From: Sphingomonadaceae bacterium
GTDB lineage: Bacteria; Pseudomonadota; Alphaproteobacteria; Sphingomonadales; Sphingomonadaceae
Direction: 5' to 3'
NCBI GenBank assembly: GCA_903642255.1
Contig: CAHJWP010000008.1
Location: 1-33,314 of the forward strand
DNA: 33,314 nucleotides
Shown here: in pieces, positions 20,680 to 33,314 of the stretch
How positions within the stretch are numbered: the stretch's first letter is position 1
How the letters are laid out: every line of letters begins with the position of its first letter
Made by a program: the position numbers and the translations under genes
The notes under the pieces: generated by a model
What the model saw: the letters and a program-made list of their open reading frames with translations, nothing else
Database searches by the model: none
Told to the model about the DNA's origin: nothing

Positions 20680-23600
20680 TCAATGGAAATCTCGCGACTT
20701 GGGCAGGATGCGGACGCTGCGCGGGTGCCCGTAAGTGCGCGAGTAACCAGGGTGGAGGTCTTCATCGGCTTGCGTTTTCTGAGGAGTGGCATCGTGAGTC
20801 TTTGACAGGAGGTCGAGTTCTGCCGTGCGGTCGTGTATATGAGTCGCCATTAGATGGACCACCCCTTCCGAACTGCGCTGCAGCTCGCCTTCGACCAGCA
20901 TCAGACGCGATGCCATGATATTTTTGCGGTAGCTTTCAAACAGCCGCGCCCAAATGATGACGTTGGTTACGCCGGTTTCATCCTCAAGCGTGACGAAGAT
21001 GGCGTTGCCCTTACCGGGACGCTGCCGGACGAGGACGATGCCGGCGGTTTTAACCTGATCCCCATGTCTGGCGTTGGATGTACCGGCGCAGGTCTGCACG
21101 GCTTCATGGTCGAAAATCGGCCGCAGAAATTGCATCGGATGCGCTTTAAGCGACAGATGTATAGTCTGATAGTCCGCCGCGACCTCCTCGGCTTTCGACA
21201 TGACCGGCAGATTGACATTCGGCTCAATGCCAAGTTCGCTGGCGTCGGCGGCGGCAAATAGCGGCAGGACATCAGACGGTGTTCGACGCGCTTCCCAGAG
21301 TGCGGCGCGACGGTAGAGACCGATCGAGCCGTATGCATCGGCATCGGCAAGCAGGCATAGTGCGCGCTGGGGTAATTTGCCTGTTCGCGCCAGTTGTTCG
21401 ATACTCGTGAAGAGTCGGTTGGCTATGATGTCTTGGCCCCATGCTGCCCGAAAACCATCGATCTGACGAAAGCCGAGACGCAAAGCGAAATCGCCCTTTC
21501 CACGGCATTCAAGGCTATTGTCCCAGTCGCTGAAGTTCACGTCGACGGGCAGCACCTCGACACCATGATCGCGCGCGTCTCTCACGATCTGCGCCGGAGC
21601 GTAGAAACCCATCGGCTGGGCATTGAGCAGCGCGGCTGCAAACACCGCCGGATAGCGGCATTTGATGTACGACGATACCCAGACCAGTCGCGCGAAGGCC
21701 AGTGCGTGGCTTTCGGGAAAGCCGTAACTGCCGAAGCCCTCGATCTGCCTGTAGCAGCGCCGGGCGAACGCCTCATCGTAGCCCCGCCGTACCATGCCGC
21801 CGACCATCTTGGCCTCGAACTGCTCCATGGTTCCGAGATTGCGGAAGGTCGCCATCGCGCGGCGCAGTTGATTAGCTTCCGAGGGGGTGAAATCGGCAGC
21901 GACGATGGCGAGCTTCATCGCCTGTTCCTGAAACAGTGGGATGCCCAGCGTCTTGCCGAGCACGTCCCGCAGTTCGTTCGGGTCATGCGGCGACGCCGGT
22001 GAGGGGAAATCGTGCGACTCGAGACCCTGCCGTCGCCGCAGATAGGGGTGGACCATGTCGCCTTGGATCGGGCCGGGCCGGACAATTGCGACCTGAATGA
22101 CTAGATCGTAGAATTCTCGCGGACGCAGGCGCGGCAGCATGTTCATCTGCGCTCGGCTTTCGACTTGAAACACACCGACACTGTCACCCCGGCACAGCAT
22201 GTCAAAGACATCGGAAGCATCTTCAGGTACGTTATCAAGTGAGTATTGCTTGCCTACATGCGTTTCGATCAGTTCAAACGCCTCGCGGATGCATGACAAC
22301 ATACCGAGTGCCAGCACGTCGACCTTCATCAGGCCCAGTGCATCAATGTCGTCCTTGTCCCATTCAATGAAGGTGCGGTCAGCCATCGCGGCGTTGTGGA
22401 TCGGCACAGTTTCGTCGAGCCGATCCTCGGTTAGTACGAAGCCGCCGACGTGCTGCGACAGGTGGCGTGGGAATTTGAGAATTTGGCCGACTAAATCTGC
22501 GAGCCGGGCGATTTCCGGTGAGTCAGGATCGAAGCCGGTTTCGGTGAAACGCTCGCGCTCCATCTTGTCGGAAAAACTGCCCCAGATGGTGGTACTCAGC
22601 CGTGTCGTGACATCTTCGGTAAGACCCAACGCTTTGCCGACTTCGCGGACCGCGCTGCGCGGACGATAGTGGATCACGGTGGCAGCGATTCCTGCACGCT
22701 CGCGACCGTAGCGGCGATAGATGTACTGCATGACCTCCTCGCGCCGTTCGTGTTCGAAATCGACATCTATATCGGGCGGTTCGCGGCGTTCCTCCGAGAT
22801 GAAGCGGGAAAAAAGCAGATTATTCTTAAGTGGATCGACTGCTGTTATGCCAAGCACGTAACAGATCGCCGAATTGGCCGCCGATCCTCGTCCTTGACAT
22901 AGGATGCCTTTGCCTCGTGCAAACGCGACAATATCGTGAACAGTAAGAAAATACGTAGCGTATTGCTGCCGTTCGATTATGGCGAACTCGTCGGCGAGCA
23001 ATGTTTTCAGCCTGTTCGGAATGCCCTCCGGCCAGCGTTCGTGCGCCTTGTCTAAAGTCAACGTTTCAAGCCAGCCTTGCGGCGTGTATCCCGGCGGAAC
23101 TGGCTCATGCGGGTATTCATACCGCAACTGGCCAAGGTCGAACTGGATGCGCCCAAGCAGTGTCTGCGTCTCGCCGATGGCATGTGGCGCATCGGCAAAC
23201 AGCCTTGCCATTTGTTCAGCGGATTTCAGATGGCGCTCTGCATTGGCAGCAAGCAGACGTCCGGCGCACTGGATGGTGCGCCTTTCGCGAATGCAGGTCA
23301 GGATGTCATGGAGCCGACGTCGATCGGGCGTTGCGTAAAGTGCGTCGTTCACGGCGATCAGCGGCAGCAATGCGGCGCGGGCCTGAGCCAAGCGCTGCTG
23401 AAGCAGCCGTCGGTCGCGCCCGCCATGATCCATGGTGGCGCCAAGCCACACTCGTCCAAGTGCGGCTTGGCGTAATATATTTAACAATGAAGCGGAGCCG
23501 CCTGCCCCCGGCATGACGATCAGCAACAAATCATCACAATGGTCGAGCAGATCGTCGAGATGCAGGATGCAGCCGCCCTTTTCGGCGCGCAGATTGCCGA

Positions 23601-23919
23601 GAGTCAGCAGTCGCGTCAGCCGCCCCCAGCCACGCCGCGTTACCGGATAGGCAACGATGTCCGGAGTGCCGTCCCCGAAAATCAGCCGAGCGCCAGTGAT
23701 GAGCTTGAAGTCGACCTTGCCTAGCCCGGCTTTGGCAGCGTTCTCACTCGCTTCTTTCAGCGCCGACCATGCGCGCACCACCCCAGCAACTGTGTTACGA
23801 TCCGCAATACCTATGCCGCTGTGACCGAGCGACAATGCCTCTCCGATCATATCGGATGGATGCGATGCGCCGTGTAGGAATGAGTAGTTAGTCGTAGCGG
23901 CAAGTTCGGCGAAGATCAC
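20680..23919 (-). CDS. dnaE2: Error-prone DNA polymerase III alpha subunit DnaE2 (ImuC)
   Basis: The translesion polymerase of the ImuABC mutasome, 1079 residues, normal for the family. In order: an N-terminal PHP domain in which the usual His-x-His is replaced ('TTNYSFLHGASHP', residues 9-21), so its metal centre is probably inactive, as in other DnaE2; the polymerase core with 'GRGSAANS' (343-350) and the catalytic Asp383/Asp385 in 'PPDIDVDF'; a third acidic residue in 'MKVDVLALGM'; and a C-terminal OB fold ('GIVLVRQRPGKGNAIFVTLE'). It starts with GTG at 23919, overlapping the imuB stop as GTGA. It works with ImuB after SOS induction to copy damaged templates. Base composition is lower in GC than the flanking genes. 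Confidence 0.95.
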   Translation of the reverse strand: MIFAELAATTNYSFLHGASHPSDMIGEALSLGHSGIGIADRNTVAGVVRAWSALKEASENAAKAGLGKVDFKLITGARLIFGDGTPDIVAYPVTRRGWGRLTRLLTLGNLRAEKGGCILHLDDLLDHCDDLLLIVMPGAGGSASLLNILRQAALGRVWLGATMDHGGRDRRLLQQRLAQARAALLPLIAVNDALYATPDRRRLHDILTCIRERRTIQCAGRLLAANAERHLKSAEQMARLFADAPHAIGETQTLLGRIQFDLGQLRYEYPHEPVPPGYTPQGWLETLTLDKAHERWPEGIPNRLKTLLADEFAIIERQQYATYFLTVHDIVAFARGKGILCQGRGSAANSAICYVLGITAVDPLKNNLLFSRFISEERREPPDIDVDFEHERREEVMQYIYRRYGRERAGIAATVIHYRPRSAVREVGKALGLTEDVTTRLSTTIWGSFSDKMERERFTETGFDPDSPEIARLADLVGQILKFPRHLSQHVGGFVLTEDRLDETVPIHNAAMADRTFIEWDKDDIDALGLMKVDVLALGMLSCIREAFELIETHVGKQYSLDNVPEDASDVFDMLCRGDSVGVFQVESRAQMNMLPRLRPREFYDLVIQVAIVRPGPIQGDMVHPYLRRRQGLESHDFPSPASPHDPNELRDVLGKTLGIPLFQEQAMKLAIVAADFTPSEANQLRRAMATFRNLGTMEQFEAKMVGGMVRRGYDEAFARRCYRQIEGFGSYGFPESHALAFARLVWVSSYIKCRYPAVFAAALLNAQPMGFYAPAQIVRDARDHGVEVLPVDVNFSDWDNSLECRGKGDFALRLGFRQIDGFRAAWGQDIIANRLFTSIEQLARTGKLPQRALCLLADADAYGSIGLYRRAALWEARRTPSDVLPLFAAADASELGIEPNVNLPVMSKAEEVAADYQTIHLSLKAHPMQFLRPIFDHEAVQTCAGTSNARHGDQVKTAGIVLVRQRPGKGNAIFVTLEDETGVTNVIIWARLFESYRKNIMASRLMLVEGELQRSSEGVVHLMATHIHDRTAELDLLSKTHDATPQKTQADEDLHPGYSRTYGHPRSVRILPKSRDFH

Positions 23920-25436
23920 GCGAAAAGCCCATGCAGGTACCAGTCCGGCATTGACTTTTCGACGCCATACAGTCCATGCCGAAATAGCCAGAACCGCCGT
24001 CCCCGCTTATCCTCGACGCGGTAATAATCACGGGTCAGCCCTTTACCGCTGCGGCGTTTCCACCACTCGGCAGCGATACGCTCCGGGCCTTCGGCGCGTA
24101 TCACATCATGGTACAGCCGTCGCCACTTGAACCACAACGGCGACCCATCCGGAACGGCAGCCATCACTTCGATGCGCTGCGGGGGATCGAACATATGAAG
24201 CGGGCGCAGCGGCGGTTCGCCAGTTTCGAGCACCGGCCACGACACAGGGGGAGACTGTACTGCCAATTGCAGCTCGAACGCAGCCTGTTCGGGGATGTGG
24301 CTGTCACCGGCTGCGAAACGCCGTATCCGGTTATGTCCCAAGCGTGTTGTTAGCCGATTGATCAGGGCGGCTAATTGGGCATCAGTAGCCGTACTTTCTT
24401 CCAATGGCAGCTGGTGCGGAATCATCGGTTCGGTCAGCGGTATGGCAAGTCGGATCAGGTCATAGCCGAAGCCAGGGTCGAGTGGATCGCTTAGCGTATC
24501 GATCCGTTCACGGAACAGGCGAGCAATGACCTTGGGATCACGTGTCGGCTGGACGGTTTCAACCGTAAGGCGCGCGACATGGCCATCGCTCCGGAACAGC
24601 GCTGCCTCGAACCGCCGGCCACCGCACCCGCGTTTGAACAGGACAGCCTCGGCCTTGCACAATAGCCAATCAATTGTGCCGAGCGCCGCGTCGATATGCA
24701 ACACCGGCTCGGTAAAATGCTTTTCGACCTGCACGTCAGGCGAGTGACGACGTGGGGTGATACGGACTTCCTCGTCGCCGAGCAGTCGCGACAGCAGCAC
24801 AGGCATTGCCGCCCCGAAGCGCGCCGCCAAAGGTTCCCGCGGCCGCGCCGCCAGATGACCGATGGTTTTCAACCCAGCACGGCATAACGCTAAATGGATG
24901 TCGGCATCCAACCTGAGCGCCGTCACCGGTAGGTCATGAATGTTGTCTCCACCGAATGTGGCCAGCGCCACAGCAGCATCGGGTGTATGTGCCAACGCGG
25001 TGATGGCGCTGATGCCCTGACGAATAAGCCGACGTTGCAGATCGGCTACAAGGCCAGCCTCTTCCCTGAACTTATGCGCGCAACCGGTGATGTCGATGAC
25101 AATCCCTTGCGGCGGATGGGTCGCCACCATGGGAGAATAGCGATCACAGGCGTCTGCCAGCCAGTCGAGCAGAGCCGCATCGGCAGCCGCATCGTGCTCG
25201 AACGCCGCAAGTTCGGGGAGTCGCGCCCGCGCATCGGCCAGCGTCAACCCCGGCGCGATGCCGGCCGCGCAAGCGCGTGAGTCGACCGCCGCGAGGCGGA
25301 TCGATCCACGCACTTTTTCAGTCAGTGCAAAGGGTGTTTCAGGCGACGCGCCGCGCGCCCTCAACAGCCGTTCCGCTGCCAACAATGGCAGAAACACCGC
25401 CAGATATCGGCGCGTCCCTGAACGTTCTTCGGTCAC
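23916..25436 (-). CDS. imuB: ImuB, catalytically inactive Y-family polymerase homologue
   Basis: Hub of the SOS mutasome that links DnaE2 to the beta clamp. The 506-residue product opens with 'RRYLAVFLPLLAAERLL'; an active Y-family enzyme would have the acidic D-x-D/F-F motif there, so catalysis is lost, as expected for ImuB. 'QLPLEE' at about residues 342-347, followed by 'DAQLAALINRLTTRLG', sits where ImuB carries its clamp-binding hexapeptide. The C-terminus 'WYLHGLFA' is typical. I chose the GTG at 25436 because GGAG lies 7 nt upstream. This gives a 98-nt overlap with imuA. ATG 25457 and the upstream frame to 25523 are alternatives. Confidence 0.92.
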   Translation of the reverse strand: MTEERSGTRRYLAVFLPLLAAERLLRARGASPETPFALTEKVRGSIRLAAVDSRACAAGIAPGLTLADARARLPELAAFEHDAAADAALLDWLADACDRYSPMVATHPPQGIVIDITGCAHKFREEAGLVADLQRRLIRQGISAITALAHTPDAAVALATFGGDNIHDLPVTALRLDADIHLALCRAGLKTIGHLAARPREPLAARFGAAMPVLLSRLLGDEEVRITPRRHSPDVQVEKHFTEPVLHIDAALGTIDWLLCKAEAVLFKRGCGGRRFEAALFRSDGHVARLTVETVQPTRDPKVIARLFRERIDTLSDPLDPGFGYDLIRLAIPLTEPMIPHQLPLEESTATDAQLAALINRLTTRLGHNRIRRFAAGDSHIPEQAAFELQLAVQSPPVSWPVLETGEPPLRPLHMFDPPQRIEVMAAVPDGSPLWFKWRRLYHDVIRAEGPERIAAEWWKRRSGKGLTRDYYRVEDKRGRRFWLFRHGLYGVEKSMPDWYLHGLFA

Positions 25437-26100
25437 GGTCCCACTCCACACGGGCATCGAACCCGGCAATTCCTCCGCGATGGCGCAACAGGCTGATGTC
25501 AAACGCTGGAGGTCCCGGCGCATTGCCTACCAGCGCTCGTGAGGGCGCTCCGCTGATCCGCCACCGTGTCTGGGCTGCGCTCGGCACGGGATCGACGCCT
25601 GAGCGCACCACCAAGGTCATTACCCCTGATCGTGCCGCCGCCAACGCGAGTCGGCGAGACGTAGTCAAGTCAAGCAATGGAGCCTTACCCCACGGTTCAA
25701 GGATCACCGCGCCTACTCCACCGCAATTAATGATATCGGCACCGGCCCGTAACAATGAAAGCGTATCTGGTGCTGTCACCAGCAAAACGGCAGCGGGGTC
25801 GGCTCCCAGTTCAATTAAACCTAGAGGGTAGAGTCGCCCGTCACGCTGCTCATTTCGCTCTTCCCGGACCCAAAAGACTGGTCTCGCTAGACAGGCGCGC
25901 AAGATCAGCAGCAGAGCAAAGCCTGCTGCCGCACAGCGATCTTCGGGCAACCCGGCAAAAATCTCGTGCAACGCTGCTCGTGCCAGTCCGCCCCTCAGCA
26001 ATGCATCGCTCTTTACCGCGCCGGTTTCAACGACAGAGATTTTGCCGCTGAGCTTTGTCCTTCCGCCGAATGCGGGGTTCAATGAGGGCGAAAAATTCAT
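25339..26100 (-). CDS. imuA: ImuA, RecA-like SOS mutagenesis protein
   Basis: Small RecA-related partner of ImuB and DnaE2, 253 residues. Recognised by 'ALHEIFAGLPEDRCAAAGFA' near residues 43-62, the family's conserved entry motif, then 'VFWVREE', 'YPLGLIELGADPAAVLLV' and 'GAVILEPWG'. The start was set at ATG 26100 because the LexA box and promoter lie immediately upstream; the open frame continues to 26205 but would then contain those elements. It heads the imuA-imuB-dnaE2 operon and should be induced by DNA damage. The C-terminus is Gly/Val-rich and overlaps imuB by 98 nt. Confidence 0.9.
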   Translation of the reverse strand: MNFSPSLNPAFGGRTKLSGKISVVETGAVKSDALLRGGLARAALHEIFAGLPEDRCAAAGFALLLILRACLARPVFWVREERNEQRDGRLYPLGLIELGADPAAVLLVTAPDTLSLLRAGADIINCGGVGAVILEPWGKAPLLDLTTSRRLALAAARSGVMTLVVRSGVDPVPSAAQTRWRISGAPSRALVGNAPGPPAFDISLLRHRGGIAGFDARVEWDRDRRTFRDAPISGGVSAIVGSGTAVEGARRVA

Positions 26101-26102
26101 AT

Positions 26103-26117
26103 GTTCTTGGTGTGTTC
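26103..26117. promoter_or_regulatory. LexA (SOS) box, alphaproteobacterial type
   Basis: GTTC at 26103-26106, seven bases, GTTC at 26114-26117, an exact match to the GTTC-N7-GTTC direct repeat bound by alphaproteobacterial LexA. On the imuA strand it reads GAACACACCAAGAAC and ends 2 nt before the ATG at 26100. It overlaps the -10 element of the predicted promoter, a position suited to repression. Confidence 0.88.
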
Positions 26118-26142
26118 TTACCGCCATCCGTATGAGAGTCAA
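26115..26142 (-). promoter_or_regulatory. Predicted imuA promoter
   Basis: On the minus strand, TTGACT (26142-26137), a 16-nt spacer, and TAAGAA (26120-26115). The -10 element overlaps the LexA box. Transcription would begin about 8-10 nt before the ATG at 26100, so the mRNA would be nearly leaderless if that start is correct. Confidence 0.5.
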
Positions 26143-26529
26143 CGGCGGCACAAAGGTTGGTTTGCCTGCGCCGCATGAATGATGCTCCCTTGCCGAGGCA
26201 GGCAATCGGACGGATGATCCAGAGCTCTGCCTTGAGATGCATATCGCCTGGGCAGACGGTGCAACTCGCGTCGGGAACTCTAATCCGATACCGCTTCACC
26301 TCCGAATGCGTTGCGCGCCATCCGGCCACGCTGGACTGCATTTCAAAACGGAGATTTGGACCTCCAGCGCGCGATCCTATTTCAGCGCTTAGTCCACTAG
26401 TCGTACACAGCGGTTCTAGTTGCCTCAGCATGCCGCGTAGTTTGCCGCGCCTAACCCGAGGATTAGCCACCACGCCCGCACCGAGTTTGAAGAGTAGCAC
26501 CTAGGCGCGACCATTGCTAACGTTGGCAG
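26143..26529. other. Intergenic stretch between divergent imuA and SLOG genes
   Basis: About 390 bp. Open frames on both strands (for example 26157-26504 on +) have no recognisable motifs and Arg/Ser/Pro-rich composition. No tRNA, inverted terminal repeats or attachment-site duplication is evident. It must contain the promoter of the SLOG gene, but I cannot place one with confidence. Confidence 0.5.
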
Positions 26530-28314
26530 ATGCAAGGTCCACATACGCGGCAGGAACGTGTCTTGAGCGGCGTGCCCACGGTCCCCTTATGTCTGACCAT
26601 AGGCGTCACAGGCCATCGTGATTTGTCCGGGGCTAACGAAGGTCTGCGTCCGCGACTTGAACAGGTCCTCTGCCGCCTGCGTGATGCGGCCGGACAGGAG
26701 GGCATTGCTCAGAGCTTTGGACCAGCACCTATGCAAATCAGGCTGGTCTGCCCGCTGGCGCAGGGGGCTGACCAGATCGCCGCGGCCATCGCGCTCGACC
26801 TCGGATATGACCTGCATGCCGTCCTACCGTTTCGACGCGACGATTATGCTGCCGATTTCGTCGACACCTACCATGCTGCAACTTATGCTACGCTTCTCGC
26901 CCGCGCTTCACGTGTCCTCGAGTTGCCGTGTCGGCGCGGGGAAGTACCGTCGGCGTACGCACTTGCCGGACGCGCGACGATCGCGCACAGCGACATTCTC
27001 ATTGCGGCGTGGGACGGCCTGCCAGCCCGCGGTGCGGGTGGCACCGCGGAAGTCGTCGAGCATGCGCTTCGCCTCGGCCTACCTGTGATCCATGTCCCGC
27101 TCGATGCTAATCAGCCTATCCGACTGATATGGAGCGCGCACGAGCCCCACCTGCTGCAGACCCGAGTCGAAGAAATCTCGGCCCGGCAACTGGACGATGC
27201 GAGTTACATCGTACTGATCGACCGGCTGCTCGCGCCGCCGGTAGATATCAATGAACGAGGGCATCTGACACAGTTTCTTGCCGAGCGCCAGCGTCGGTTC
27301 AAGCTACGTATGGAATATCCATTACTGCTCGCCGCCGCCGGAGCGCGCCGCCTGAGGCGTTCGGCGCTCCTGGCGGCCCCGTATCTCACGACGGATGAAC
27401 CCTCTTCCGGCAGCCCGGGGGACGTAACAGGTGACGTGAACGTGTGGCGGGCGGCGTACTTCTGGAGCGACGGGCTCGCGGCGCACTTCGCTCAGAGCTA
27501 CCGCAGCGGTCATGTCTTCAACTTCTGCGCCGGCGCACTCGCGGTACTGCTTGGCCTGTCGGGGCTGGTGCTGCCGGAGGTCAAGCTATGGCTCGCGTTT
27601 GCCGAACTGGCGGTCATCGGTGCGTTCATTATGAACACCCGCGTCGGCGTCGCACGGAACTGGCATCGCCGCTGGCTGGATTACCGCCAACTGGCTGAGC
27701 GGTTGCGGCCAATGGCGAGCCTGTCGGCGGTCGGCATTGCCCAGCCCGACCGAGCACCTGTAACGCGCCGCGCCACCAGCTGGGTCGACTGGTACGCCGC
27801 CGGCATCTGGCGGAGCATCGGCATGCCGGCCGGGGAGCTCACCCGCGACGTTGCCGGGCTTACGCAGGCAATCGTCACGCGGGAGCTTCTCCCCCAAGTC
27901 GCCTACCACCGTACCAGTGCGGCAACTGTCCACCACCTCGATCACGCGCTGCACCGTGCCGGCACGGTGCTGTTCGCCATCTCCTGCCTTAGCTGCGCGG
28001 CGTTCATCGGCGCCTATCTCATCGATCACGCATGGACGGTCGCTCACGCGGCAGACTTCGTCGCCCTGTCGGCAGGCCTGCCGGCGATCGGCACGGCCTT
28101 CTTCGGCATTCGCGTTCAAGGCGACTTCGCCGGGACGGCCGCCCGCTCCGAAGTCACCGCCGACCACCTTGCCGCTGTCGCCGCCGCACTCGAGGCGCGG
28201 CCAACTACATTGTCGCGCACCGCCGACGGCATCGAGGCCGCGGCGCGCGCAATGTTCGCCGACCTCGGCGAATGGCGGCTGTCGCACCAGCAGCGCCAGC
28301 TAGAACTGACTTGA
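26530..28314 (+). CDS. SLOG-domain protein with SLATT-like four-helix membrane module
   Basis: A 594-residue protein. Residues 20-235 look like a SLOG/LOG-type Rossmann domain: 'IGVTGHRDL' (24-32), 'CPLAQGADQIAA' (74-85), 'LPFRRDDYAADF', and 'DILIAAWDG...GGTAEVVEHAL' (155-180), the nucleotide-binding G-G-T loop. Residues 305-560 hold four hydrophobic helices (about 328-349, 352-369, 477-498, 509-527) in two pairs, with 'NWHRRWLDYRQLAERLRP' between the pairs, as in SLATT/DUF4231 proteins. SLOG-SLATT proteins are proposed nucleotide-sensing, pore-forming immunity effectors (Burroughs, Aravind and colleagues). Start uncertain: ATG 26530 has no clear RBS, whereas TTG 26563 has AGGA 7 nt upstream and would lose 11 residues. 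Followed after 47 bp by a protease gene. Confidence 0.75.
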   Translation: MQGPHTRQERVLSGVPTVPLCLTIGVTGHRDLSGANEGLRPRLEQVLCRLRDAAGQEGIAQSFGPAPMQIRLVCPLAQGADQIAAAIALDLGYDLHAVLPFRRDDYAADFVDTYHAATYATLLARASRVLELPCRRGEVPSAYALAGRATIAHSDILIAAWDGLPARGAGGTAEVVEHALRLGLPVIHVPLDANQPIRLIWSAHEPHLLQTRVEEISARQLDDASYIVLIDRLLAPPVDINERGHLTQFLAERQRRFKLRMEYPLLLAAAGARRLRRSALLAAPYLTTDEPSSGSPGDVTGDVNVWRAAYFWSDGLAAHFAQSYRSGHVFNFCAGALAVLLGLSGLVLPEVKLWLAFAELAVIGAFIMNTRVGVARNWHRRWLDYRQLAERLRPMASLSAVGIAQPDRAPVTRRATSWVDWYAAGIWRSIGMPAGELTRDVAGLTQAIVTRELLPQVAYHRTSAATVHHLDHALHRAGTVLFAISCLSCAAFIGAYLIDHAWTVAHAADFVALSAGLPAIGTAFFGIRVQGDFAGTAARSEVTADHLAAVAAALEARPTTLSRTADGIEAAARAMFADLGEWRLSHQQRQLELT

Positions 28315-28361
28315 CGGTGCGGCGGCAGACAGCGCAGAATCGTAGCGGGGAAGGGTCTGAG

Positions 28362-30167
28362 ATGCGTTTGCTGGGGGCGATTGTCGTCGCGCTTGCCCTG
28401 CTCGTCGGCACGTCCGCTCGGGCCGACGGCGATGGGCCGTTCGGGATAAGTGGCGTCGCCCTTCCGCCGGGTGGAGCGTTCGAGGCGGCGGCGTGGCGGC
28501 GGAATGGCAAGCAGATCCTGACGATCGACGAGAACAACATGCTGCTGTTCTGGGACGCGGCGTCGCGGCGGCTGATCGACACGATGACCCTCGGCACCTT
28601 GCCGCCGCGACCGACCGGCAGCGGCGCGCCGCGGCGCGTGACGCTCCGGATCAGCCCCGATAGCATGTTCGCTGCCGTAACAGTGCTGCCCTCGGGTCGT
28701 CCGGCAGTTACCCTTCTCGTCGATCTTGTCGCCGAGAAGGTAACGGAAACAATCGACCGGCCGGCGTTATTCTGGATCCCCACGGGCGTCGTCGCGGGGC
28801 CGCACGCCGGGTGTACGGTGGCGTGCGACTTTGCTGTAATCGATCCGCGGACGACGCACGATTCGGCCCTAGGTATTGGCTTCGGCGACGGCCGGGTTGT
28901 TGCGGCCATGCCCGACGGCAGTCGCTTCGTCTCCGTCGTGGCGGTGGGCGGCAGGCAGGAACTCGTCGTCTGGACAACGACGACTTGGACGCCGCTGGTC
29001 CATGTGCCGCTCGCGTCCGATGTGGTGGTCGAGGTCGGATTCGATCAAGACGGAAGCCACGCCTTTGCCAGGCAGGCGACGCCGCAGGTGGTGGTCGTCG
29101 GCGTCGCTGACGGCCGTGTTGAAACGTCATCTTTGCCGCCCCAGGCAGCGGGTATGGCCTTCGCCACCGACGTTGATAGGCGGCGCGTCATGACGCCGCT
29201 CGGACCGATACCCTTTGACAGCAATAAGATGTCTGCACGTATGGACTTCTTCACCTTCTACGCCGCCGACCCACGATACGGCGCGATATACACCTTCAAC
29301 GACGGTTTGGCGGCGGCGATCGGGGCGCGACCCGCGGCACCAAATGCATTTCCCTGGCAGGTCGAGCTGCAGTATCGCGCGCCGCCCGGCAGTGGCTTCT
29401 CGCCGTTGGTGCTGCATAATTGCGGCGGCAGCCTGATCCGCGCCGGTTGGGTGCTGACCGCGACGCACTGTTTTCTGACCGCCGACAACCTCTTGCGCTC
29501 GGACGCCGAGGCGCAGGCGCACACCGTCGTCCGCGCCGGCTCGACTGAGCTTGATGCCGAAATGAAAAATTTCGACGTCGTTGGCGTCTACATCCGGCGC
29601 TGTACCCAAACTGCAAGCAATGACTGCTTCCACGACTATGATCCGGCCGCGCAGCCGCCGGTGCCGCCGCTCAATGACATCACGCTCCTGCGGATCGTGC
29701 CCCACGTCGAGCCGGTCGTTGGGCGCAGCTTCACCTTACAGGCGGTGCCTACCGGTCAGATCAAGCCGATCCGCCTTCCCGCGCCGAGCGTGGATATCCG
29801 CCCACCATCGCCGGTGACGATGACCGGCTGGGGTGCAACGTCGGTCGGAAATGCGCAGGAGCGCGTCATGTCGGCGTCGCTTAACCGGATCGATATCACA
29901 GTCATGCCGCGCGAGGTGTGCAGCCGCCGTCACGGGTTCGGTCCGCTAGCCCCTACCCTGATCTGTGCCGGCTCGGCCGACGATGCGCAGCTCGCGTGCA
30001 AGGGAGACAGCGGTGGTCCTCTGGTCGCCGACGTCGCCAAACGTCCGGTGCTCGTCGGCATCGTGTCGTGGGGCAACTGTACGGGCGGCCCGGCGATATA
30101 CACCAGCGTTGCTGCCTTCGTACCGTGGATCAACGCGACCATCGCCGCGGCCGAGGCGCACCGGTGA
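28362..30167 (+). CDS. Secreted beta-propeller / trypsin-like serine protease fusion
   Basis: A 601-residue exported protein. A signal peptide (residues 1 to about 21, 'LGAIVVALALLVGTSARA') precedes a WD40/propeller-like region (about 25-310) with repeats such as 'NNMLLFWDAASRRLIDT' and 'LVVWTTTTWTPLVHV'. The chymotrypsin-fold S1 domain (about 318-595) has the full triad: His369 in 'LTATHCF', Asp439 in 'LNDITLLRI' and Ser550 in 'GDSGGPLV'. The residue at the base of the S1 pocket (position 189) is Leu544, so it should not have trypsin specificity. 'AIGARPAAPNAFPWQV' stands where proteases carry I-V-G-G. AAGGG lies upstream of the ATG. It shares a GTGA overlap with the next gene. Confidence 0.85.
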   Translation: MRLLGAIVVALALLVGTSARADGDGPFGISGVALPPGGAFEAAAWRRNGKQILTIDENNMLLFWDAASRRLIDTMTLGTLPPRPTGSGAPRRVTLRISPDSMFAAVTVLPSGRPAVTLLVDLVAEKVTETIDRPALFWIPTGVVAGPHAGCTVACDFAVIDPRTTHDSALGIGFGDGRVVAAMPDGSRFVSVVAVGGRQELVVWTTTTWTPLVHVPLASDVVVEVGFDQDGSHAFARQATPQVVVVGVADGRVETSSLPPQAAGMAFATDVDRRRVMTPLGPIPFDSNKMSARMDFFTFYAADPRYGAIYTFNDGLAAAIGARPAAPNAFPWQVELQYRAPPGSGFSPLVLHNCGGSLIRAGWVLTATHCFLTADNLLRSDAEAQAHTVVRAGSTELDAEMKNFDVVGVYIRRCTQTASNDCFHDYDPAAQPPVPPLNDITLLRIVPHVEPVVGRSFTLQAVPTGQIKPIRLPAPSVDIRPPSPVTMTGWGATSVGNAQERVMSASLNRIDITVMPREVCSRRHGFGPLAPTLICAGSADDAQLACKGDSGGPLVADVAKRPVLVGIVSWGNCTGGPAIYTSVAAFVPWINATIAAAEAHR

Positions 30168-31407: not shown

Positions 31408-33314
31408 CTAATCTTGTCCCTCTAAGCGCCGCGCGATGGCGGCGAAGCCCGCTGCCGTCCGCACAGGATCGAGCAGGGGGTCGCTGCCGATCAGCAGGAT
31501 GCCAGCGTCGTGGGTGGCATAGGCGCGTGTCAGGGCGGCGAGGGCCGGTGCCGCTTCACCGCGCTGGGCATGGACCTGTGCCTGCTGATAGGTCGTGCTG
31601 TCGCCGCCATCGGCGACCATAGCATTGAATGCGATGGTAGAACCCGCGCGGTCGCCCAGCCGCGCGTGGGCGATCGCCTGCCCGCGCAGCCGCTCCCACG
31701 TCTCGGGCTCGGCGGCATATTCGGTGGCCGCCGCGGGAATGTCTCCCTGCAGCAACAGGGCATCGCCAATCGCCGAGTGAACGCCGATGATCGCTGGATT
31801 GAGCGTAAGCGCGCGGCGCAGCGCGACGATCGCCTCGGGATAGCTGCGGGCGACGATGAGTGATAGGCCCAGCGTCTTGAATGCCCGCGCATTAAAGGGG
31901 TCGCGCCGCACCGCCTGCTGGATCGCGGCGAGCCCGGGGCCGACCGCGCCAGTGCGGCAGGCGAACAGGCCATAGCGCAGCAGGATGTCGGCATTGCCGC
32001 TGCCGGTGCGCAGCGCGAGGTCGTATGCCCGCCGGGCACCGGCAATGTCGAAGCGTCCATAAAGCAGGACGCCGGCGAGGCTGCTCTGCGCCTCGGCCGA
32101 GTCGGGGGCCAGCGCGACGGCGCGGCGTGCGGCCGCCTCGGCGGCGTCATAGGCCGCGCGCTGCGCCTGCGACGCCGTCAGGAACTGGTTGGCCATCGCT
32201 AGCAGCGCCCGCGCCCGCGCCGCATGCGCCTCCGCGAAACGCGGGTCGGCGGCGACGGCGGTGTCGAACATCACCAGCGCCGACCTCATCCCTGCCTCGC
32301 CTATCCCGGCGTCAAGCGCCGCCCGGCCGCGGAGGTAGGCGTCGTTCGCCGCTGCGCTCGCCGTTCCCGCTCGACCGAGTGCAGCGACGGCGCGGTCGGC
32401 GAGCCGGACCCTGAGCGCTGCGGCGACTGCTTCGGCAATCCCGCGCTGCACGGCAAAGACGTCGGTCAGGTCACGGTCGTAGGTGTCGGACCAGCGCTCG
32501 AACCCCGACGCCGCCTCGACCAACTGCGCGCTGACGCGAACCCGGTCACCGCTGCGCCGGACGCTGCCGTCGAGGATGAAGGCGACGCCGAGCTTGGCCC
32601 CGATTGTGCTACTGGTGTCCCGGCTGTTCTTAAATTTGAACGACGATGTCCGTGCGGCGACCTGCAGCGTGTCAATGCCGGCCAGTGCGCTGAGGAGCTC
32701 CTCCGACAGGCCGTCCGAAAAATAGGCTTGGGCCGGATCGGCGCTGAGGTTGGCGAATGGCAGCACGGCGATGCTGTTGGCCGGCGCGACGGCGGCGGCT
32801 GGACGTCGACAGTCGATGCCGACCGAGCACAGGACCGTTCGCGGCAGCAGGATCAGGCCACCGACCGAAGCAGCGATAATCGCCAATACCACCGACCATC
32901 GGCGGCGGCGGCGGCGAGGCGTCGCGCGTGCCACTGGCGCGTCGAGGCCGGCGACCATCGCCCGCGCCGCAGCAAGGAGATCGAGTAGGCGAGGGTCGTC
33001 GCGGTCTCCGCGCCAATTCTCGAGCGGCAGCAGCTGCCGCTGTCCAAAGCCAAGCGGCGGCTCGACACGGTCGATCCGAACGGGAAGATAGACGCCGCGG
33101 CGAACGGCGTGCGCGGCCTCGTCGTGGACGAAGTGCCCTTCGGGCCCGACCGCAGATTTGCTCCACACGACGATCACGCACGCCGCGGCGTCAAGTTCTG
33201 TCTGAATCGCCTGCCGCCAGATCACGCCACCAGCGAGCGCGACATCCCACCAGACCGTCAGACCTGCCGCATCCAGTGCGTCGACGAGTGATCGTACACG
33301 CTCGCGATCTTCTC
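31408..33314 (-). CDS. TIR / TolB-like / TPR membrane protein, 5'-truncated by window edge
   Basis: The frame is open to the window end, so the N-terminus is missing. Order: a TIR domain ('RVRSLVDALDAAGLTVWWD', 'GVIWRQAI', 'CVIVVWSKSAV', then 'GHFVHDEAAHA', whose Glu at about 33118-33120 occupies the NADase catalytic position); an Arg-rich stretch and one membrane helix ('WSVVLAIIAASVGGLILL'); a TolB/FlgO-like domain ('SIAVLPFANLSADP', 'FILDGSVRRSGDRVRVSAQL'); and a C-terminal row of TPR repeats ending at the stop. This architecture recurs in alphaproteobacteria, often annotated as adenylate-cyclase-like TPR proteins. The TIR part would be cytoplasmic and the TolB/TPR part periplasmic. It could be a signalling or conflict protein; function unproven. 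Confidence 0.85.
   Translation of the reverse strand, partial: EDRERVRSLVDALDAAGLTVWWDVALAGGVIWRQAIQTELDAAACVIVVWSKSAVGPEGHFVHDEAAHAVRRGVYLPVRIDRVEPPLGFGQRQLLPLENWRGDRDDPRLLDLLAAARAMVAGLDAPVARATPRRRRRRWSVVLAIIAASVGGLILLPRTVLCSVGIDCRRPAAAVAPANSIAVLPFANLSADPAQAYFSDGLSEELLSALAGIDTLQVAARTSSFKFKNSRDTSSTIGAKLGVAFILDGSVRRSGDRVRVSAQLVEAASGFERWSDTYDRDLTDVFAVQRGIAEAVAAALRVRLADRAVAALGRAGTASAAANDAYLRGRAALDAGIGEAGMRSALVMFDTAVAADPRFAEAHAARARALLAMANQFLTASQAQRAAYDAAEAAARRAVALAPDSAEAQSSLAGVLLYGRFDIAGARRAYDLALRTGSGNADILLRYGLFACRTGAVGPGLAAIQQAVRRDPFNARAFKTLGLSLIVARSYPEAIVALRRALTLNPAIIGVHSAIGDALLLQGDIPAAATEYAAEPETWERLRGQAIAHARLGDRAGSTIAFNAMVADGGDSTTYQQAQVHAQRGEAAPALAALTRAYATHDAGILLIGSDPLLDPVRTAAGFAAIARRLEGQD

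Follow-up and report, generated by a model that had tools for sequence, protein, structure and literature searches.

Predicted compression of LexA operator, promoter and start codon at imuA in a Sphingomonadaceae genome, and candidate CcrM/GcrA sites beside the operator in relatives

Many bacteria rely on the imuA-imuB-dnaE2 cassette as their main machinery for damage-induced mutagenesis. In Caulobacter crescentus, the imuAB-dnaE2 operon (CC3213/CC3212) carries a GTTC-N7-GTTC operator and is induced by damage (PMC1839093, PMC12700426). The Caulobacter imuABC promoter is induced early, and the timing was attributed to promoter strength, not to LexA affinity (PMC12700426). No statement of the imuA leader length was found in the papers searched on this operon. 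Sphingopyxis granuli is reported to have two imu operons, with imuA and imuA2, and in strain TFA both were induced together with lexA and recA (PMC6472365). In the alphaproteobacterium Caulobacter, where 375 leaderless mRNAs were mapped, such transcripts are common and translated well; a count of 171 for S. meliloti is cited in the same paper (PMC4117421). For GANTC sites, the extended motif YGAKTCK was proposed for GcrA activation, a preference that was not found in Brevundimonas, and the conservation of GANTC at Caulobacterales imuA and ruvC was ascribed to overlap with the LexA box (PMC7987155).

The window, i.e., the whole stretch of 33,314 nt analyzed here, is from a 71% complete metagenome-assembled genome (MAG) of a Sphingomonadaceae bacterium (contig G000:C8). 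Upstream regions were read at 95 imuA-type loci, nearly all from Sphingomonadaceae and including the window; 56 were classed as canonical (better-matching) and 38 as divergent, and because of kinship these locus counts are not counts of independent events. Genera with a match in the family search numbered about 85. Features of the window locus are listed in Table 1. All three cassette genes were found in the order imuA-imuB-dnaE2 on one strand, and the true imuB start is probably somewhat downstream of the start of its open reading frame. ImuA matched the NCBIfam model ImuA_translesion with an E value of 9.8e-5, under the curated cut-off. Among 149 genomes of the family, 126 have a homologue, with identity up to 62% within the genus, and on this similarity the window protein is considered orthologous to imuA of the relatives even though it falls under the NCBIfam cut-off. 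The operator GTTC-N7-GTTC and the gene order are shared with Caulobacter crescentus, for which damage induction is known from the literature; the difference is that across Sphingomonadaceae the operator abuts or contains the imuA start codon. Adjoining imuA on the opposite strand is a gene for a protein without a Pfam or NCBIfam match (26530-28314, +), followed by one for a trypsin-like protease (28032-30167, +), and a TPR-repeat protein with a borderline TIR domain, scoring 27.9 bits against a cut-off of 28, is encoded at 31408-33225 (-).

Table 1. Features of the imuA-imuB-dnaE2 locus, in window coordinates, with the basis of each assignment.
Feature	Position	Strand	Basis
imuA, 253 aa from ATG 26100	25339..26100	-	NCBIfam ImuA_translesion and homologues
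imuB open reading frame, Y-family polymerase-like accessory factor	23916..25523	-	Pfam IMS, 27 bits
dnaE2 (imuC), error-prone polymerase	20680..23919	-	NCBIfam PRK05672 error-prone DNA polymerase, 1384.8 bits
imuA start codon ATG	26098..26100	-	2-nt box-to-ATG spacing commonest in canonical relatives, 17 of 54
Alternative in-frame upstream ATG, rejected as start	26125..26127	-	Between -35 and -10, no Shine-Dalgarno, not conserved
LexA box GTTC-N7-GTTC, imuA strand GAACACACCAAGAAC	26103..26117	.	Exact match and conservation
-35 hexamer TTGACT	26137..26142	-	Sequence; TTGAC conserved upstream of box in relatives
-10-like TAAGAA, 3-nt overlap with box	26115..26120	-	Sequence; AT-rich counterpart in relatives
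Predicted transcription start (~+/-2 nt), leader ~8 nt	26108	-	Inferred from promoter spacing
GACTC (GANTC, CcrM site) in -35 extension TTGACTC	26136..26140	.	Sequence

The plus strand at the box reads GTTCTTGGTGTGTTC, a perfect match to GTTC-N7-GTTC. Read along the minus strand, the elements are TTGACT, 16 nt, TAAGAA, the box GAACACACCAAGAAC, AT, and the ATG (26100-26098), with the last three bases of the -10 element lying in the box. An earlier note on this DNA, made from the letters and a list of open reading frames, had described a perfect SOS box 2 nt from the imuA ATG that overlaps a TTGACT-N16-TAAGAA promoter; each of these elements was found as described. The operator that identifies LexA-regulated genes in this class is thus present at the imuA promoter of the window. 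The same genome has a second LexA-type box (L001, G000:C1:8073-8087) at the gene of a putative DNA-repair radical SAM protein; it precedes the ATG by 2 nt, which is the box-start geometry of imuA.

The TAAGAA hexamer matches TATAAT at 3 of 6 positions, and a strict sigma-70 scan of 26000-26600 was uninformative, calling no promoter, TTGACT/TAAGAA included. The relatives are more regular. TTGAC, with a background frequency of 0.00034 per position, stands upstream of the box in 42 of the 56 canonical loci, at 28-31 nt before it in 34 of these, and an AT-rich TATAG or ATTAG abuts the box. In a sigma-70 promoter the distance from -35 to +1 is about 35-36 nt. The distance from TTGAC to the chosen start drops below 35 nt only at L094, whose start call is doubtful; 12 of 56 loci have values of 35-39 nt, and the window has 42 nt. 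Since this floor matches the -35-to-+1 distance, the start codon would not precede the expected transcription start and would often coincide with it. Within the genus, the ATG shifts relative to the box, lying inside it in three congeners (L037 and L038, GAACATAACATGAAC; L039, which is outside the 95-locus set, GAACAGATCATGAAC; TTGAC-to-ATG 38-39 nt) and 2 nt after it in the window, and the -35-to-ATG distance stays at 38-42 nt. A maintained distance with a shifting box position is what near-leaderless transcription predicts. For the window, the predicted start is 7 nt past the -10 element, giving a leader of about 8 nt (6-9). Strict leaderlessness is not universal among canonical relatives as judged from spacing, since many have predicted leaders of 10-20 nt and not 0-9 nt. 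Much of the divergent group of 38 loci has a TTGC about 20 nt before the box, a CATAAT-like -10 inside it and the ATG about 17 nt after it. This imuA class comprises L092-L128, and some genomes carry both classes.

Protein similarity alone does not fix the start, because in closer relatives homology to the window ImuA, counted from ATG 26100, begins only at residue ~17-27. The geometry of box and start across relatives is taken to fix it: among the 56 canonical loci, 42 have the chosen start 0-9 nt past the box and 8 have it within the box.

Three other readings of the box, promoter and start were weighed. Counted as a pattern, the box is at chance level (1.01 copies expected per window; at least one copy in 65 of 100 shuffles), so that its weight rests on position and conservation. 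These argue strongly against a chance match at an imuA outside LexA regulation: a LexA-type box is present near the imuA start in 94 of the 95 loci (in one of the 94, L062, with a single mismatch), and its N7 spacer has position-specific preferences common to the family, although the window spacer, ACACCAA, deviates at the third base, where the family has an invariant A. The chance reading was ruled out on conservation and is considered extremely improbable. Translation from an in-frame ATG that the earlier note does not mention, ATG 26127, giving a product that begins MAVRTHQEHMNF... and placing the box inside the coding sequence, is allowed by the window itself, where the frame is open upstream and runs through the box. 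That codon lies upstream of the predicted transcription start, between the -35 and -10 elements, and so would not be transcribed from the predicted promoter; it has no Shine-Dalgarno (dG +0.7), and homology in closer relatives covers only the shorter protein from residue ~17-27. At 60 of 91 loci such an extension is impossible, because a stop codon in frame beside the box closes off any start in the 40 nt upstream of it. This makes the window ATG 26127 very unlikely as a start, and it was rejected. The third reading places an unrecognized promoter further upstream, with a normal leadered mRNA, TTGACT/TAAGAA being incidental and the LexA box acting as a roadblock within a longer 5' UTR. The weak -10, which the scan passed over, is compatible with it, and the intergenic stretch to the next gene exceeds 400 nt and therefore has room for another promoter. 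Against this stand the near-fixed TTGAC-box spacing in most relatives and the finding of no other promoter-like site in 26000-26600; a long leader would moreover still be without a ribosome-binding site, since the family has no Shine-Dalgarno before the ATG. A leadered transcript is thus unlikely, and the promoter abutting the box is preferred.

The imuA start is without a Shine-Dalgarno across the family. Median duplex energies with the anti-Shine-Dalgarno sequence were -2.9 kcal/mol for canonical and -2.5 for divergent imuA loci, against -2.6 for shuffled sequences and -0.5 for the window, which has no Shine-Dalgarno by this measure. The family controls gave -7.4 (lexA) and -8.4 kcal/mol (recA), and all passed -4.5; these are two control genes only, both well expressed. 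A Shine-Dalgarno carried by the box itself (AGGAAC, present in some relatives) was rejected as a general rule by the duplex energies. The earlier note had made a leader of about 10 nt, and hence almost leaderless translation of imuA without a Shine-Dalgarno, conditional on the promoter and start being right. The family comparison supports both conditions, through the near-fixed TTGAC spacing and the start codon pinned to or inside the box. With the spacing floor at 35-39 nt and shuffle-level pairing set against the strong lexA and recA sites, the near-leaderless start without a Shine-Dalgarno is a well-supported prediction. It resembles the alphaproteobacterial leaderless mRNAs (PMC4117421) in having the AUG at or near the predicted 5' end and no Shine-Dalgarno; it differs in that the imuA leader is predicted from sequence (~8 nt in the window, ~0-4 nt in congeners) and is linked to a LexA operator.

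A GANTC site lies within 30 nt after the box in 86 of 94 loci; the local background of 0.0016 per position predicts about 5. Shuffling of the post-box segments (1000 shuffles) gave 10.9 on average and at most 20, and the following 35-nt windows had 2-13. The GcrA form YGAKTCK was fitted by 79 of 104 GANTC heptamers. These box-side sites of relatives were beyond the reach of the earlier note. In the divergent class the site is usually between box and ATG. A further GANTC, in nearly every case GACTC, often forms part of the imuA -35: TTGAC is followed by TC, giving TTGACTC, in 30 of 58 imuA promoters versus 1 of 29 for lexA and 0 of 8 for recA. The window has no GANTC downstream of the box and only the -35 GACTC (TGACTCT), so that YGAKTCK, found in the promoter/start region of most relatives, is absent from that of the window. 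The likeness to the GcrA/CcrM promoters of PMC7987155 is the conserved GANTC, in YGAKTCK form, in the imuA start region of relatives. Unlike the Caulobacterales sites of that paper, those of this family, known here from sequence, adjoin the LexA box and do not overlap it, and the window lacks the downstream one. Because the sites stand beside the box, the published explanation by LexA-box overlap fails in this family.

The box-side GANTC of relatives might instead reflect a protein-coding constraint (Glu-Ser after the start) and not a DNA signal. Frame 0 is indeed the commonest, with 50 of the 86 loci, and often encodes Glu-Ser. The other two frames account for 36 loci (25 and 11), however; in the divergent class the site, usually before the ATG, is uncoded, and the middle base is G or T, as in YGAKTCK. 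As all three frames are used and the divergent sites mostly precede the ATG, the downstream GANTC is not simply coding, and a coding constraint is an improbable explanation of it. An SOS-wide association was not seen at lexA or recA, GANTC occurring within 60 nt at only 6 of 28 lexA and 6 of 26 recA boxes. The downstream GANTC is mostly not class-wide: it is rare in alphaproteobacteria outside the family. A TTGACTC -35 recurs there, similarly spaced from the box, and the ATG mostly follows the box by 4-30 nt.

When the family genomes were scanned for a composite of LexA box and downstream GAKTCG, the composite was also found at genes besides imuA, and the reversed control pattern was found at none. 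These genes, named by eye from translations, include a conserved small HTH-like protein, an SRAP protein, a Dam-like methylase and a 2'-5' RNA ligase-like protein (composite loci, e.g., L197, L201, L204, L208, L215, L206, L207 and L211). The only composite in the genome of the window (L017, G000:C13:14474-14508) has a GAGTCG and an ATG 1 nt after the box.

Searches of the 71% complete MAG found no lexA, recA or gcrA, and the regulators were therefore inferred from relatives: LexA is present in all 58 other family genomes searched and GcrA in 5 of 5 congeners. A CcrM-type RAMA domain was found in the MAG itself. In one congener (L039/L196; G005 contig 228), genes for a CcrM-type methylase and an endonuclease III-like protein and imuA are co-directional within a few kb.

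The reading put forward, to which a probability of about 0.78 is given, is a LexA-repressed imuA-imuB-dnaE2 operon with a compressed promoter and start, a leader of about 8 nt, leaderless-like translation without a Shine-Dalgarno and, in relatives, a probable input from GANTC methylation. The -10 element, LexA operator, transcription start and imuA start codon would be packed within about 25 bp, and LexA bound to the box would block RNA polymerase at the -10 and +1 positions. After damage and LexA cleavage, transcription would begin about 8 nt upstream of the ATG, as the spacing suggests. The resulting mRNA would be translated in a leaderless-like manner from its 5'-proximal AUG, as the conserved absence of a Shine-Dalgarno and the -35-to-AUG distance indicate. 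In most relatives, the CcrM/GcrA-type GANTC just downstream of the box, often with another in the -35, would probably let methylation act as an added input; of these sites the window has the -35 GANTC alone. The locus is an SOS operon with a possible cell-cycle input.

More tentatively, imuA of Sphingomonadaceae, including Erythrobacter-type genera, may be governed by a three-way element that combines a LexA operator, a leaderless or near-leaderless start without a Shine-Dalgarno, and adjacent CcrM sites. Synthesis of the mutagenic polymerase might then respond to DNA damage and, in addition, to how the DNA behind the replication fork is methylated, and the window would be a member without the downstream methylation site. 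The compressed layout and CcrM/GcrA-type sites at imuA in this family were not found described in the literature searched, which does not prove their absence from it. What appears new is the family-wide conservation, as read from the upstream regions, of the compressed layout together with CcrM/GcrA-type sites beside the operator. Such sites would undercut the published account of imuA GANTC conservation as a by-product of LexA overlap, and they open a link between replication state and mutagenesis to direct test. If the imuA mRNA lacks a Shine-Dalgarno and is nearly leaderless family-wide, its translation may follow other rules (70S or AUG-first initiation) than that of lexA and recA, and the timing of mutagenesis would then gain a translational layer.
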